A stretch of 43,039 nt of DNA from a virus, in the IMG/VR virus record IMGVR_UViG_3300027985_000981, positions 1-43,039 of that record; one strand, written 5' to 3'. The position numbers and the translations under genes are program-made. The stretch's first letter is position 1; each line of letters begins with the position of its first letter. This document shows positions 336-42,759 of the stretch, piece by piece. The notes beneath the pieces were generated by a model. It was not told where the DNA came from. It did not search any database and was given only the letters and a program-made list of their open reading frames with translations.

Positions 336-443
336 ATTTATACTATATATATGTTAAAAATGCCCCTGTGTATTCCTGAGGGTGGCTGTGGCTGCTTTAT
401 GTGGGGGGTCGTGAGATCTTGTGCAAGCTTTTAAGGTCCTGTT

Positions 444-463
444 GTGTCAATTATATGTCAACC
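444..463 (-). promoter_or_regulatory. Orphan operator-like pair TTGACA-N6-TGACAC
   Basis: On the minus strand GGTTGACA (456-463) is followed after six bases by TGACAC (444-449). This is the same 12-bp offset seen in the four minus-strand promoters at 30.5, 33.1, 37.7 and 42.7 kb. Here the expected -10 position reads GGACCT, so it is probably not a promoter in that direction. A protein-binding site that also serves the late side is possible. Confidence 0.5.
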
Positions 464-5615: not shown

Positions 5616-6221
5616 ATGACAGGACAAGAAGAAAAACAAACAGTAGACGTTAGTAACCTTACTGAGGATCAGATCAAAGAGATCGAAACCAGTGAGGAGT
5701 TTGTACTAAACTTTAAAGATGAAGATTATGCTGACCCGGATAAGGTCGAGGAGCTTAGGAAGCATCTCGCCACCACAAAAACAACCATTCATCAGAAAAG
5801 GCATTTCCGCGATAAGGTGAAAGAGCTAGAAGGTAAGGGCAAAAACCCTGACCCTGCTAACCCTCAGGCAACCCCCACGGTAGATGCACAAAAGCAAGCA
5901 ACCGAGGATGCGAAAAAAGGAGTTGATCCTAGTGTGGCTCTTACTTTTCGCGTCGATCATCCTGAGTTATCGAAGGATGCAGCAAACGAGGTTATACGTC
6001 ATGCCGGTGCGTATAACGTTACCCCAGAAGAAGCCTTGGAGTCACCGGTCATCAAGTCATACCTCGCAACAATAAAAACAAAAACAGAGGTTGAAGATGC
6101 GTCGATTCCTCCGGGAAATAACCCTTCTGCAACCGGATTAGAGAAGCGTGATTGGTCCAACGCTACTCCACAGGAAATTGAAGCTCAACGTCACAAGATC
6201 ATGACGGGAGGGACAAGTTAA
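5616..6221 (+). CDS. Scaffold-like head assembly protein
   Basis: This 201-residue protein is strongly charged and mostly helical, with acidic N-terminal segments, a Lys-rich middle and a Pro/Asn/Gly-rich C-terminal region. This composition and the place directly upstream of the capsid gene are those of scaffolding proteins in N4-gp56-type capsid clusters. No enzymatic motif is visible. The start AAAATATGACAGG has no Shine-Dalgarno. The scaffold role is inferred from position and composition. Confidence 0.65.
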   Translation: MTGQEEKQTVDVSNLTEDQIKEIETSEEFVLNFKDEDYADPDKVEELRKHLATTKTTIHQKRHFRDKVKELEGKGKNPDPANPQATPTVDAQKQATEDAKKGVDPSVALTFRVDHPELSKDAANEVIRHAGAYNVTPEEALESPVIKSYLATIKTKTEVEDASIPPGNNPSATGLEKRDWSNATPQEIEAQRHKIMTGGTS

Positions 6222-9069: not shown

Positions 9070-10740
<1,671 letters not shown>

Positions 10741-10741
10741 T

Positions 10742-11131
10742 ATGGCAATATTATCTGAAGTTAGAGAAAAAGCAGATGCAGTACTTACGACGTTCTGGTT
10801 GGCATTAAAAGTAAAACAAGAAGCGTACTTTGCAAAACACGGAAAGTACTTCCAACTGCTCGTATCACCAACAACAAACGTTGTGGACGGTGCAGACAGT
10901 ACATTCACGGTACGCAAACCAAGCGATGAGAAGTACGTGGTAGACGTAGACTTTACATGGATAACGAAGATACCGTTCAACATTGAGGTTCATGAGTGGG
11001 TGGGGGAGAAAGATAATATAGGATACGTTGTTCATGTAAAAATGAAAGTTGGAGAAGATACATACTGTCGTAGTCGAGACAGTAAGAACGTGGACACGGG
11101 CTGGTACAAGCAAGTGATACCGATAATATAA
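10742..11131 (+). CDS. Hypothetical protein following the collagen-like fibre
   Basis: This 129-residue protein is counted from the ATG immediately after the fibre stop (TAATATGGC). An N-terminal helix (EVREKADAVLTTFWLALKVKQEAYFAKHGKYFQ) is followed by beta strands ending in YKQVIPII. A helix followed by beta strands is common in small fibre-attached or chaperone proteins. No enzyme motif is visible. It lies between two receptor-binding-type genes. Confidence 0.65.
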   Translation: MAILSEVREKADAVLTTFWLALKVKQEAYFAKHGKYFQLLVSPTTNVVDGADSTFTVRKPSDEKYVVDVDFTWITKIPFNIEVHEWVGEKDNIGYVVHVKMKVGEDTYCRSRDSKNVDTGWYKQVIPII

Positions 11132-30226: not shown

Positions 30227-30475
30227 TTATGAGGCAAACTCCTCAAGCGTTCGCTCGATCTTAATACTTCTTTTTTGATACTTCATTTTTGAAAGTATCC
30301 CAAGTTCACAAAGGTCATCAACAAGACGGTAGACATGTCGTTTTGCGATATGAACACCGGCAGATATTTCAGTTACCTCAGGTGAGACAAGGTTCTTCTT
30401 AATATATTTTTCTATGTAACGGTAAACCTTTACATGGAATGGTCTTAATGCGATGTGGTTAGTTTTTTTGCTCAT
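30227..30475 (-). CDS. Winged-helix transcription regulator
   Basis: This 82-residue DNA-binding protein has the LexA/MarR-like pattern RPFHVKVYRYIEKYIKKNLVSPEVTEISAGVHIAKRHVYRLVDDLCELGILSKMKYQKRSIKI, a helix-turn-helix followed by a wing. It has its own promoter of the shared type at 30482-30526. The -10 ends six bases before the ATG, so the transcript probably starts at the ATG (leaderless). It is the best candidate for the factor that recognises the repeated TTGACA-N6-TGACAC operator and could be self-regulated. Confidence 0.75.
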   Translation of the reverse strand: MSKKTNHIALRPFHVKVYRYIEKYIKKNLVSPEVTEISAGVHIAKRHVYRLVDDLCELGILSKMKYQKRSIKIERTLEEFAS

Positions 30476-30481
30476 AGGTAC

Positions 30482-30526
30482 ATTGTATCTGAAGTCATTT
30501 TAAGGTCAACAGTAAATTGTGGATAA
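30482..30526 (-). promoter_or_regulatory. Shared-type promoter of the winged-helix gene (leaderless)
   Basis: On the minus strand TTATCCACA (30518-30526, a perfect DnaA-box consensus) is followed after eight bases by TTGACC (30504-30509). TGACTT follows 6 bases later (30492-30497), and the -10 TACAAT at 30482-30487. The -35/-10 spacer is 16 bp. The -10 ends six bases before the ATG. Confidence 0.8.
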
Positions 30527-30976
30527 CTATCTTTTGTTAACAATAAGAGCATAAAAATCTGTAACCGTCATATCCTCAAACGAGTACATATCTTTCATGC
30601 ACCGAGCATAGAACAATGCTTGCTCGTGTCGGAAACTACGGTTGGGGTTTGTTGCTATGACAAATTTATACTGGCGACGGTAAGCTTCAATCTCTTGTTG
30701 GAGCCTAAAATCTTCATCAATAAAATATCTTTCCCACCAAGCAGCAGCTCCACCCGGGTACGTTGTTTGCTGTTCTACGTGAGTAAGTTCATGAGCAAGA
30801 ACGTCTTTTTGCAAATACCCTGACGCTACATGAATGGTGTCACCATACGTAAAAATAGTACTGATAGGATGGCCGTAGAAATCAACACCAAACTCTTTAA
30901 CTGCCCTTTCGTAAACAGGAGGAGGTGAGGTACTGATCTTATAGTTTATTTTTTCCATGTTACTTTCATGATTCAA
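30527..30976 (-). CDS. Small HExxH zinc metallopeptidase
   Basis: This 149-residue protein carries LAHELTHVEQQ (HExxH zinc site) with a downstream Glu in QQEIEAYRRQYKF that can serve as third ligand, the layout of compact gluzincins. No signal peptide is present, so it may act in the host cytoplasm or on phage proteins. The first ATG overlaps the helicase gene by 11 bases; ATG 30958 (MEKINYKIS) is an alternative. A phage-encoded protease in a replication unit could remodel host factors; the substrate is unknown. Confidence 0.75.
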   Translation of the reverse strand: MNHESNMEKINYKISTSPPPVYERAVKEFGVDFYGHPISTIFTYGDTIHVASGYLQKDVLAHELTHVEQQTTYPGGAAAWWERYFIDEDFRLQQEIEAYRRQYKFVIATNPNRSFRHEQALFYARCMKDMYSFEDMTVTDFYALIVNKR

Positions 30977-32369
30977 TAATTTTTAAAAACTTTTTTAATT
31001 TATGGTTAGGGAAAATGTACGGGTCATACACAAAATGTAATGTTCCAAAAGTCTTACCATCTGCTTTTCTCATCAAACGTCCTCTTATCTGGTGTAACAA
31101 TAGTTCGTTTGTATATATCGGCGAGATCAAAACAACATGGTCTAGATCTGATATTGAAACTCCGGTTGATACACAACCTACTGTTGCAAAGATGACTGAA
31201 AGGTCATCATGTTTCATTGCCTCATAACTCTTGATTGCGCCTTTAGCGTCCTTGCCAGTAATTATACCTGCCTCAATTCCATACGTCTCCTTGAGATCTT
31301 TCTGTAGAAGGTAGCAAGGAGCAACAAACCGCGACAGCACTATTGTTTTACCCTTCAGTTTTGAAACATGGTCAAGGATCATCTTGTTTCGTTTCTCGTC
31401 ATACATAATTGTTTTGTCTTGTAACTGACGAGCTTTTTGTGTAGGGTTGCGATCTCCTTGTTCGGTTAAACCCTCAACAACACTATCCCAATCAAATTTT
31501 GTTTCACTTTCAAGAATCTTTGGTACAACAGGTACCACTCTACCTTTCTCTAAAAGCACTTCTTTCCCTATCGTGTAGATCACTCCACCAAACGTGGAGA
31601 AGATCATGAACTCTTTACCGTCTTTCCTTTTGAGGGTACCGGAAGTCCCGAAACGATAAGTAGAGTTGATTCCGTTAATAAGGGTGTTGATAGTTGTTGC
31701 TGGGCATATGTGACACTCGTCAAGGAATACTGCGCCAAAACTTTCTCGATAGCTGTCTCTAAGTCTTGAGAGAGTCTTGTCGATTGCAATGGTGATAGGC
31801 CCGATGGTATTACTACCTGCACCGATGATACCCGGTTCGATTTTTTTGCCATGTTCGTCTCTTATATATTTATCAATATCTTCTAAAAATTGCTGCATCA
31901 ATACTTTTCGATGGACAACGATAACAGATCTTTGTTTCAGTTCACAGATAGCCTTGAGAATGATGAGAGACTTCCCCGCAGACGTCACAGCGTGGATGAC
32001 ACCCTGTCGGTGCTGTTTCAAAGCCTCGATAGCTCCTTCCTGATATTCATCCAAGGCAAAGTCATCATTAATGTACTGCAAAGATATCGGAGACTCAGCG
32101 GTTGAGAATTTATACGAAACACCACCTGCATACGCATCGTAGGCTTTCGATACCTTTTCCCATTCCCCCCGGGGTATAGAAAGCACGGTGTTGTCATCGT
32201 TAAACTCATACATCTCAATGTACTGCGGTGTCTTGTGCACTGATATACCCATCTCTTTTTTTTTGTAGTACTCAGGGTTGTTGTACGTAAGTAATGGCAC
32301 CAAAAAACTAACAATGTTCATGTCAGGGTTGTTGATCCGTATTTTGTTGTCAACAAAAAGTATATTCAT
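30966..32369 (-). CDS. SF2 DNA/RNA helicase (UvsW/RAD25-like)
   Basis: This 467-residue helicase is counted from ATG 32369 (TAATG overlap with the upstream stop). SF2 motifs are YQEGAIEAL (Q/Ia region), TSAGKS (Walker A), IVVHRKVLMQQFL, LDECHICPA (DECH box), SGTLKRKDG (motif III), IVLSRF, IFATVGCVSTGVS and HQIRGRLMRK (motif VI). UvsW-type helicases remodel branched DNA and R-loops in phage replication. It sits beside the metallopeptidase and other recombination genes, which fits the role. Confidence 0.88.
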   Translation of the reverse strand: MNILFVDNKIRINNPDMNIVSFLVPLLTYNNPEYYKKKEMGISVHKTPQYIEMYEFNDDNTVLSIPRGEWEKVSKAYDAYAGGVSYKFSTAESPISLQYINDDFALDEYQEGAIEALKQHRQGVIHAVTSAGKSLIILKAICELKQRSVIVVHRKVLMQQFLEDIDKYIRDEHGKKIEPGIIGAGSNTIGPITIAIDKTLSRLRDSYRESFGAVFLDECHICPATTINTLINGINSTYRFGTSGTLKRKDGKEFMIFSTFGGVIYTIGKEVLLEKGRVVPVVPKILESETKFDWDSVVEGLTEQGDRNPTQKARQLQDKTIMYDEKRNKMILDHVSKLKGKTIVLSRFVAPCYLLQKDLKETYGIEAGIITGKDAKGAIKSYEAMKHDDLSVIFATVGCVSTGVSISDLDHVVLISPIYTNELLLHQIRGRLMRKADGKTFGTLHFVYDPYIFPNHKLKKFLKIIES

Positions 32370-32677
32370 TAGCCGTTGATTAATTTTTGTAAGCCGTACC
32401 ATACAGGCTCACTCTTTTGTATGACGCAAAACTCATCAGGTGACATGACTCTTGTGCAAGCAAGAGAGTCATCTGCTTTTTGTGACACGTAGTATCCGAG
32501 GAAAAATGCAACAGTAAAAGCAATAGGAACTAACAACATAAAAGCAACTGTTGTTAGTTTCTGAGATTTTGCTTCCGCTATGGCACCTTCAACCCCTTCA
32601 GCTATAAAAGATCTTGGTAAAACATGTCCTCTGTTTAAGGCTGTACGTAGCGTTTCTAAATGTGTTGGTGTTTTCAT
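32369..32677 (-). CDS. Single-pass membrane protein
   Basis: This 102-residue protein has a soluble N-terminal region, one strong transmembrane helix (TTVAFMLLVPIAFTVAFFLGYYV, residues about 42-64) and an exterior C-terminal part with two Cys (LACTRVMSPDEFCVIQ) that could form a disulfide. Orientation and function are unknown; it could be a superinfection-exclusion or lysis-accessory protein. The last base of its stop is the first base of the helicase start. Confidence 0.6.
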   Translation of the reverse strand: MKTPTHLETLRTALNRGHVLPRSFIAEGVEGAIAEAKSQKLTTVAFMLLVPIAFTVAFFLGYYVSQKADDSLACTRVMSPDEFCVIQKSEPVWYGLQKLING

Positions 32678-33044: not shown

Positions 33045-33101
33045 ATAATACAGTAAGTGTAATTGGTGTCAATTTAATGTCAACCTTTCAACTGTGGATA
33101 T
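33045..33101 (-). promoter_or_regulatory. Shared-type promoter at 33.1 kb
   Basis: On the minus strand ATATCCACA (33093-33101, one mismatch to a DnaA box) is followed after nine bases by TTGACA (33078-33083), TGACAC (33066-33071) and a -10 TACACT at 33056-33061 (16-bp spacer). An alternative -35 at 33067-33072 with TATTAT at 33045-33050, also 16 bp apart, overlaps it. It would drive the gene ending at 32817 and what follows. Confidence 0.75.
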
Positions 33102-34866: not shown

Positions 34867-35256
34867 TTAATAAAAATTATAGCGGATAAACTTTAACTGT
34901 AGAACCATTGGAGGAACGTGAACTGGGTATATCTCTCCCTCTATTTTAACCACTACGTCATAATCGTTTACGTGTTCAACAACAATAGCGTTTTTTGGAG
35001 CAGACATTTCGTTTGGGTGAACCGTTACATATGAACCAACAGGGAAAAAAGATGCTTTATACCGATCCATACTATTCAATCGAGAGATCAACTCTTTCCT
35101 CATGTCATTAATTTCTCTAGCGGTTTGCCTTACCTTGGTTCCGGTAAGTTTTTTCTCTCCGTTAAGGCCAAGCATTTTTATGTGGGTCTCTTGAATAGCC
35201 TTAACCAAGGTAGCTGTACTGAATCCCTGAAATTTCATGTAGCCGTCGTCGATCAT
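34867..35256 (-). CDS. Hypothetical protein following the PrimPol-helicase
   Basis: This 129-residue protein has a helical N-terminal half (FSTATLVKAIQETHIKMLGLNGEKKLTGTKVRQTAREINDMRKELISRLNSM). A small beta domain follows (FFPVGSYVTVHPNEMSAPKNAIVVEHVNDYDVVVKIEGEIYPVHVPPMVLQLKFI) with a Tudor/SH3-like look. It overlaps the PrimPol stop as ATGA, implying translational coupling. It may be a DNA- or helicase-binding partner. Confidence 0.65.
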   Translation of the reverse strand: MIDDGYMKFQGFSTATLVKAIQETHIKMLGLNGEKKLTGTKVRQTAREINDMRKELISRLNSMDRYKASFFPVGSYVTVHPNEMSAPKNAIVVEHVNDYDVVVKIEGEIYPVHVPPMVLQLKFIRYNFY

Positions 35257-37649
35257 ACTACTGTTCTAAAGTCATAGTCATTTCCATGTTCATCTCTCAT
35301 CGGTCTCACCCCTTGTACCACTCTTTGTGCCTTACTGTTAAATGCAACATTGAGTTTGAACTGTGAATCAAGACTATTGATGTGTCCAAGATCTCTGTAA
35401 AAATTTACGAGTGACTTTGGTTTGTAACCGTACTCGTAGCAAAACTCACGATACTTTTTAAATAGATCTGCGCCAAGGATGTCAAACTTTCCATAGTCAA
35501 CCGGTGCTACTGGTTGGTACTCAGATACAAGCATATCAAGTAATGGTGAGTTCTCCCTTCTGAATGTTTTAAGCATTTGAGAGTTGCGTTCAGTTTCAAC
35601 AAATGATCCTGTCTCGCGTAGATCCTTAAGCCCCTCTATTGCCCAGTTCAATATCCCGGATAGTTCTGTCACAAGTTTTTCCTCAAGATGAATGTCAGGG
35701 TTGTCTATGAATGATCGTACAAAGGGTACGATGATAAACCTTCTAAAAAATCCCGGAGTGCTATCGTTGATGTGAGGCAACTCGTTAACTGAAAAAAGTA
35801 ATTTTGCTGTTGGATAAAATTCAATAGGCTCTGGTCGATACTTTATGTTTGCCTGCATCTTTTCCCCGGAAATGAGAGCCTTGATTATGTTCGACTCAAA
35901 ATAGTTTCCACTGATCTCATCAATGATGTTTAATTTTTTGTTGATGATACCAGTAAGCCCGAACTGTTGATTGAGTACTGTTAGGTTAACGCTAGATGTT
36001 GCAGCTTCTCCGACAATGCGAGTCATGACACGAGTAAACAATGACTTACCGTTACCTCCTGTTCCATATAAGATAAAGGCTTTTGCAAAATGTGTATCTG
36101 CGGTTAACAAATACCCTGCTATCTGACGTAGCAAACGTGCTTGAGTTTGGTCCCCATCACACACTTCAAGTATAAACTTTTTCCAAAGTGGGCAATCCAT
36201 ACCCGGGGCATACTCGATAGGAACTTGCCAAGTGGTTATGTATTCCGGTGTATGCTCGATCAAGGTGTAGTTTCTGATATCCAACAAACCATTTCTAACG
36301 TTAACGATGTAGGGGTTTTGGTTGATTTGATCGTGCGTAAACATTTTACCCGGCAATGATTTGAGACAAGCAATCTTATCGTTAACCGCAGATACTCTCC
36401 TGTAGTCATGCAAACCATCTTTACTCATCTCAGAAAGAAAAAGAGATCTCAACGAATCAGCACTCACAGGTTCATACACACCTCCGAGGTACTGATAAAA
36501 GTCACCTCCTTCTTGGTACCTCAGGTACGGATACCTTTCAGCAATGATCTGTTCGTAAATGTTGTACTTATTTTTCTGTAGCTCTTTGTTGTGGATACGG
36601 GCAGACTTTGTATCCTCAGACAATGCTTTACTTGTTACCTGTGAAAGCTTGATGCGCTCCTCATCGGTTGCCATTGCCTGCATAACCTCGTTGTTATATC
36701 CAAAGTCATAGGTATGTTGATATGCGCTGCGTATTGTTTTGCGGATCTCTCTCAACGATAAACCGTGGAACTCTGTAAAGTGTTCACATGTTTTATCAAA
36801 GGTCCAACCAGACTCACGAGCCGCATATGCAGCAACAAGTAAAGATTTGTTTCTAAGACCTTGCGGGATGGTACCGGGTTCCTTAGAGAAGATCTTTTTA
36901 TAACTAGGTCTATCGAGTAGAGGGTACTTCTCCTCGATCATCTTTTTTACATTCTCATCTATAGGGTTGCCTCCTTGAGCAACCGCCCACTGGTTAGGAG
37001 GTGGATCTTTCAAAAAGAACTCCTGTATCTCAGAAAATTTGTATACGTTATCAGGAGCAAAATGTACAAGCTTAATTTGAAACGGGTTGTCCTTGTCTTT
37101 CTGATGGTACGTTTCGGGGATACGCAAAACTCGGGCTATATCTTTCGCTGCCGGGTCACCATCAAACCTTTTTAAGATCGCTTCCTCAATGTCTCGGTAC
37201 ACAACTCGTATGCGCTGCCTTTGTTCATCGTTTAAGTTCTCAAGATAAACTGGTGCAACTAGATTCCAGTAGACATGAAAACCATTTTTAGTTTCAACAA
37301 TAGCGGTCGGTACGATTCCATCATCGTATAATTCCATTAAGATGTCCTGCTTGTATTGTTTGATTAGTTCCGGTGTACGGTTCATCTTATCCGGGAAATC
37401 TATGTCAGCAAAAAAGGCATTAATGTTTGTAAGGTTTTCATTAACGCGCTTGCCTCCGAAAAAACCATTAACCGTAAAAAAAATACCGTATCCTTTCCCT
37501 TGGTTGTTTAGGTCCAAGATCTCAGAATGGATAACGGGTAGACGTGAATCGTAATCGTGTATGTATGTGTAAACGGTGTTTGGGAATAGACTCAAAAATT
37601 TCTGAGTCTTTGGCGATAGTAATAAATCTTTTTCTTTTAATTCGAGCAT
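35253..37649 (-). CDS. PrimPol-D5 helicase fusion (replication initiator)
   Basis: This 798-residue replication protein is probably the key initiator of the genome. The N-terminal archaeo-eukaryotic primase/PrimPol part has INAFFADIDFP (DxD, Asp82/Asp84), VETKNGFHVYW (His125) and GDPAAKDIARVLRIPETYH. The C-terminal D5/poxvirus-type SF3 helicase has ILYGTGGNGKSLFTRVM (Walker A near residue 530), NIIDEISGNYF (Walker B), AKLLFSVNELPHI and FRRFIIVPF. It should synthesise primers and unwind the template for a host polymerase, since no phage polymerase is seen. Its promoter lies at 37700-37757, with a leader of about 50 bases. Confidence 0.93.
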   Translation of the reverse strand: MLELKEKDLLLSPKTQKFLSLFPNTVYTYIHDYDSRLPVIHSEILDLNNQGKGYGIFFTVNGFFGGKRVNENLTNINAFFADIDFPDKMNRTPELIKQYKQDILMELYDDGIVPTAIVETKNGFHVYWNLVAPVYLENLNDEQRQRIRVVYRDIEEAILKRFDGDPAAKDIARVLRIPETYHQKDKDNPFQIKLVHFAPDNVYKFSEIQEFFLKDPPPNQWAVAQGGNPIDENVKKMIEEKYPLLDRPSYKKIFSKEPGTIPQGLRNKSLLVAAYAARESGWTFDKTCEHFTEFHGLSLREIRKTIRSAYQHTYDFGYNNEVMQAMATDEERIKLSQVTSKALSEDTKSARIHNKELQKNKYNIYEQIIAERYPYLRYQEGGDFYQYLGGVYEPVSADSLRSLFLSEMSKDGLHDYRRVSAVNDKIACLKSLPGKMFTHDQINQNPYIVNVRNGLLDIRNYTLIEHTPEYITTWQVPIEYAPGMDCPLWKKFILEVCDGDQTQARLLRQIAGYLLTADTHFAKAFILYGTGGNGKSLFTRVMTRIVGEAATSSVNLTVLNQQFGLTGIINKKLNIIDEISGNYFESNIIKALISGEKMQANIKYRPEPIEFYPTAKLLFSVNELPHINDSTPGFFRRFIIVPFVRSFIDNPDIHLEEKLVTELSGILNWAIEGLKDLRETGSFVETERNSQMLKTFRRENSPLLDMLVSEYQPVAPVDYGKFDILGADLFKKYREFCYEYGYKPKSLVNFYRDLGHINSLDSQFKLNVAFNSKAQRVVQGVRPMRDEHGNDYDFRTVV

Positions 37650-37699: not shown

Positions 37700-37757
37700 A
37701 TTATACCTTGTGTCATTCAGAGGTCAAAAAAATAACTGTGGATAAACTCGGGGATAA
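37700..37757 (-). promoter_or_regulatory. Shared-type promoter of the PrimPol gene with two DnaA-box-like sites
   Basis: On the minus strand TTATCCACA (37737-37745) is a perfect DnaA-box consensus and TTATCCCCG (37749-37757) a second partial box. After nine bases comes TTGACC (37722-37727), then TGACAC (37710-37715), then TATAAT (37700-37705), with a 16-bp spacer. The leader carries two GCTTGCTA direct repeats and a CTGAAT/ATTCAG inverted repeat. This is the best-conserved member of the promoter set. Confidence 0.85.
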
Positions 37758-42705: not shown

Positions 42706-42759
42706 ATTATATGTCGTGTCAATCAGATGTCAACCATTAAAAGTATCGTGTGGGGATAA
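42706..42759 (-). promoter_or_regulatory. Main promoter of the minus-strand (early) unit
   Basis: TTGACA (42728-42733) and TATAAT (42706-42711) are both exact sigma-70-type boxes, separated by 16 bp. TGACAC (42716-42721) sits 12 bp from the -35. A DnaA-box-like TTATCCCCA (42751-42759) lies 17 bases upstream. It would drive the right-hand genes from 42573 down. Confidence 0.88.

Follow-up and report, generated by a model that had tools for sequence, protein, structure and literature searches.

Which proteins control the early promoters of the phage recovered as IMG/VR virus record IMGVR_UViG_3300027985_000981, and does their shared promoter module form one regulatory site or several? In the window (the whole stretch of DNA analyzed, 43,039 bases), structural genes lie to the left and are read from the plus strand; those for replication lie to the right, on the minus strand, and encode a D5-type primase, an SF2 helicase, a PIF1-like helicase, and exonuclease VIII-like and RuvC-like proteins. 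Four minus-strand promoters, at 30.5, 33.1, 37.7 and 42.7 kb, precede the gene for an 82-aa winged-helix protein, the helicase operon, the primase gene and the rightmost early operon, respectively. The original prediction described them as one composite of promoter and DnaA-box-like elements; this view of a single site was not borne out, as the box is of a host type and the repeat is phage-specific, and the module is made of two independent elements. With a probability of roughly 0.55, we consider them early promoters of a probable Patescibacteria phage that are transcribed by the host vegetative RNA polymerase and carry a DnaA box and a LexA-like operator.

The predicted geometry proved exact by coordinates. 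Each promoter consists of TTGAC[A/C], six bases, a TGAC element, four bases and a -10, with a spacer of 16 bp that falls within the 16-18 bp of sigma-70 promoters, and all four contain a TGAC-N7-TGAC direct repeat. Upstream of the -35 lies a TTATCCACA-like 9-mer, at 8, 9, 9 and 17 bp in the order given above. The winged-helix promoter (30482..30509, minus strand; -35 TTGACC, -10 TACAAT) has a perfect TTATCCACA box at 30518..30526 (minus strand). The helicase-operon promoter (33056..33083, minus strand; TTGACATTAAATTGACACCAATTACACT) lies upstream of a superfamily 2 helicase gene (UvsW/ResIII-like; 30966..32402, minus strand), has a ATATCCACA box with one mismatch at 33093..33101 (minus strand) and contains an overlapping second -35/-10 pair (TTGACA at 33072, TATTAT). 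The primase promoter (37700..37727, minus strand; TTGACCTCTGAATGACACAAGGTATAAT) drives the D5-type primase/helicase gene (35253..37649, minus strand) and is preceded by a perfect TTATCCACA box at 37737..37745 and, in tandem and 3 bp away, a weaker box, TTATCCCCG, at 37749..37757, both on the minus strand. At the rightmost early operon (42706..42733, minus strand; TTGACATCTGATTGACACGACATATAAT) the box is TTATCCCCA (42751..42759, minus strand), which deviates from the classical DnaA consensus and is not a standard DnaA box. Scored against the consensus TTATNCACA, two of the four boxes are perfect and two have one mismatch.

Shuffled sequence does not reproduce the arrangement. In the window TTGACN7TGAC occurs 6 times, compared to a mean of 0.54 in 200 dinucleotide shuffles; with a -10 the figures are 4 and 0.01, and with a box in addition (at most one mismatch, within 17 bp) 4 and 0.00, none of the 200 shuffles yielding any box-plus-repeat arrangement. 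Boxes with at most one mismatch are not enriched in the 43-kb window (12 observed, 13.24 expected), and the signal is therefore one of position and not of number; the earlier statement that boxes far exceed chance holds for the former and fails for the latter. The two perfect 9-mers that had been reported are present, at the winged-helix and primase promoters, but a third perfect TTATCCACA lies at 2340-2348, inside the large terminase gene, where no promoter was noted. Of the two remaining copies of the repeat, one is intergenic (TTGACATATAATTGACAC; 434..461, minus strand) and has neither a box nor a good -10, and the other (10615-10642, minus strand) is antisense within a structural gene and probably due to chance.

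The box also occurs outside the phage. A scan of GTDB (one genome per species) for the exact pattern TTATCCACA-N7..10-TTGAC-N17..18-TATAAT gave at least 80 loci; among the 80 matches listed, about two thirds, counted from titles, belong to Patescibacteria. The two genomes with most boxes are AH-259 assemblies (G001 and G002), which we take to be single-cell genomes and probably incomplete. When the distance between TTATCCACA and TTGAC was left free from 0 to 30, it peaked at 9-10 bp in both, with 45 of 64 and 22 of 33 sites at 8-10 bp (binomial 3e-31 and 3e-15), and a second peak appeared one helical turn further, at 18-20 bp; the reversed-pattern control gave zero. Reversed boxes are locked as well, at 5-7 bp from TTGAC (50 of 99) with a weaker peak at 14-17 bp. 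Matches were found in 37 of 192 sampled Patescibacteria genomes (2 control matches in total) and in 22 of the 26 genomes of the order to which G001 belongs (control 0). Bacillota likewise use TTGACA promoters and DnaA boxes; 149 of their genomes showed no peak at 8-10 bp, and the number of matches was of the same order as in the control. The variants at the locked host position are chiefly TTATCCCCA, followed by TTATNCACA, TTTTCCACA and ATATCCACA, so that both variants of the phage recur there, and the phage distances of 8, 9, 9 and 17 bp coincide with the host peaks or border on them. The box is best read from these sequences as an upstream promoter element of host type, adopted by the phage. 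The host of the phage is probably a member of the Patescibacteria, judging indirectly by this likeness; the primase gave distant matches only (4 of 380 Patescibacteria genomes), and host assignment by prophage therefore failed.

Which protein would read the box? The 9-mer TTATCCACA is the DnaA consensus (PMC8203912), and locked host sites vary at position 5, as DnaA boxes do. In several genomes dnaA itself has boxes upstream, which in some cases form tandem pairs with a separation of 11 bp; tandem boxes also occur at phage primase promoters (see below). Among the boxed host genes are lexA (4 cases), recA and nrdJ. DnaA with domain IV is encoded in 23 of the 26 genomes of the G001 order, one copy each. 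Together, these features make host DnaA a somewhat probable reader of the box, and they lend plausibility to the earlier suggestion of a regulator tied to DnaA, given that the same box position is common in Patescibacteria promoters. They also argue against a competing explanation that we regard as unlikely but worth weighing, in which the transcription machinery itself (through the alpha-CTD, as at an UP element) or another general activator would recognize the box and its likeness to a DnaA box would be coincidental. That explanation would account for the occurrence of boxes in both orientations with helical phasing, for their mostly single arrangement, and for the many targets that are ordinary housekeeping genes. 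It is also consistent with the lack of a match to DnaA domain IV (DnaA_C) in the two genomes richest in boxes; none was found in G001, G002 or G007, the first two probably being incomplete assemblies. UP elements resemble the box in location (about -45 to -60), orientation independence and helical phasing, and differ in that the box is a specific CCACA-containing 9-mer and not an A/T tract.

A stand-alone DnaA domain-IV protein was rejected as reader, as there is none in the order, each matching genome having one full-length DnaA. A signal of paired boxes was absent from 103 host promoters.

Recognition by DnaA would have precedents as well as peculiarities. DnaA is able to stabilize polymerase (PMC8203912), and DnaA-regulated promoters such as E. 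coli nrdAB and dnaA, as well as the activation of orilambda, share with our promoters the TTATCCACA boxes in promoter regions and the presence of nrd and dnaA among the targets. In contrast, E. coli DnaA prefers box pairs 2-3 bp apart and has a compact regulon in which mostly paired boxes are bound (PMC11317965), whereas here the boxes, mostly single, are confined at many promoters to one helical face before the -35. Ten downstream host proteins were scanned directly for their family, and the other boxed host targets are mixed housekeeping genes, their functions being named by reading of the sequences. As the boxed promoters serve such a mixture, the coordination of replication with gene expression by a regulator, as originally proposed, is something that we infer. 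Tentatively, DnaA could be a general, orientation-independent activator at a locked position in Patescibacteria, with lexA, recA and ribonucleotide reductase among its targets, and the phage early promoters would have been built on it; if so, cellular and viral transcription would both be coupled to replication competence via DnaA.

The TGAC repeat has a different distribution. Using a two-sequence primase alignment as query, where a single primase against viral contigs had found none, we identified three related phages (L388, L389 and L390) with 56-60% primase identity and a shared gene order; a nucleotide search among named phages found no relatives. The repeat is located directly upstream of the winged-helix gene in all four phages, and at the orthologous promoters of the primase (four of four, with TTGTC as first half in L389 and L390), the rightmost early operon (four of four) and the helicase operon (three of four). 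Over five phages, the spacing between TGAC elements peaks at 7 (18 cases), every other spacing accounting for at most 8. The proximal box is retained in L388-L390 mainly at the primase and winged-helix promoters, and tandem boxes are present at the primase promoters of the window phage, L388 and L391. The more distant relative L391/L005, a truncated sequence, retains boxes and has no TGAC repeat. In 144 genomes of the host class, TTGACN7TGACN6TANAAT is at background (4 matches, 3 in the control), and the repeat was rejected as a host regulatory element. From its distribution among these sequences, the repeat belongs to the phage and not to the host side.

The protein encoded downstream of the repeat at 30.5 kb (30227..30475, minus strand; 82 aa) is a stand-alone DNA-binding protein with a LexA-type N-terminal winged helix and a candidate regulator. 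Its profile matches LexA (E 4.8e-5), and the best PDB match of its structure model is LexA (TM 0.77; mean pLDDT 83.7, with only one of five models confident). The C-terminal S24 autopeptidase/dimerization domain is absent, leaving the DNA-binding domain only. In all four phages the ATG start codon lies about 7 nt past the -10, and therefore the mRNA is probably leaderless. A wider search for relatives of the protein returned nothing beyond the same three phages. Because the repeat is phage-specific and always precedes this gene, the part of the original prediction that invoked a phage protein as regulator is supported. The geometry also has a counterpart: alphaproteobacterial LexA reads GTTC-N7-GTTC, a direct repeat of 11 bp (PMC3323433). 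Phage protein and LexA thus have in common the winged helix, the 11-bp direct repeat, an autoregulatory layout and a site overlapping the -35 and spacer; they differ in the half-site, which is TGAC in the phage, and in the missing peptidase/dimer domain.

Alternatively, the repeat could be a variant of the phage promoter read by polymerase (a spacer element or double -35) or the site of a host regulator. The -35 is at the same time the first half of the repeat, the second TTGACA at 33.1 kb could itself act as a -35, and some host lexA promoters have TGAC or CGAC half-sites between the -35 and -10. Nevertheless, we judge this alternative improbable, slightly more so than that of a different reader of the box, as the pattern is at background in the host class, stands in four phages always directly before a LexA-type gene, and keeps the spacing of its second TGAC even where the -35 is TTGTC (the L389 and L390 primase promoters).

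We therefore return to the reading with two independent elements. The first would be the TTATCCACA box, whose distance from the downstream -35 is fixed and helically phased (box centred near -50 or near -60); it is most likely bound by host DnaA, which would help to recruit polymerase. The second, the TGAC-N7-TGAC repeat, has halves one helical turn apart, the first in the -35 and the second in the spacer, and would most likely be the operator of the phage's own LexA-type protein. Besides its own leaderless gene, this protein would repress the primase gene as well as the helicase and rightmost early operons. Thus, in a cell with active DnaA the phage would begin early, and its early genes would be shut down as the regulator accumulates. 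Chance combined with ordinary AT-rich sigma-70 promoters would fit the unremarkable number of boxes in the window, but is very improbable in view of the shuffles, the orthologous conservation across four phages and the host-wide position lock of the box.

Patescibacteria are a large, mostly uncultured group, and to our knowledge little is known of their transcription control. A position-locked, DnaA-box-like element common to their promoters and a phage is a concrete, testable regulatory signal, which is relevant to how DnaA activates transcription, a mechanism still poorly understood, and could help to assign phages to Patescibacteria hosts. Our search of open-access papers, with most subscription journals and preprints outside its scope, found no report that combines Patescibacteria, DnaA and promoter architecture, and the claim to novelty is therefore provisional.

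Several additional features were observed. Inverted repeats of the form [C/T]GAC-N6-GTC[A/G] lie between the -35 and -10 of three boxed Patescibacteria promoters (L131 and L139, both lexA, and L277:18597-); they are candidate LexA operators, and their half-site resembles the phage TGAC. In the boxed promoter of an hrcA-like gene (L279:7784-), the -35 is surrounded by a CIRCE-like inverted repeat (TTAGCACTC..GAGTGCTAA); this promoter thus joins the box to a heat-shock operator. Several G001 and G002 promoters whose box is 18-21 bp away (e.g., L245:7271-, L247:7038- and L254:3270+) share a CTAACGGGG-like stretch immediately before the -35. In the Bacillota genome G614, TTATCCACATTTTGAC is present in eight identical copies, probably as a repeated element. 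When viral sequences were scanned for box, repeat and -10 together, L399 was the one additional contig to match; its composite is good, but the small gene that follows is unrelated. The 89-kb viral contig IMGVR_UViG_3300025073_000039 (L068, L074) has up to four exact box-promoter matches; it seems that the element is used by other phages as well. In L389 (about 5700-5900 and 10880-10930) and L390, the primase promoter is separated from its gene by tRNA-like sequences, and a tRNA-like 3' end adjoins the helicase-operon promoter. Lastly, the structural genes of the window include one for a collagen-like protein with many repeats of a 10-residue unit (9070-10740).
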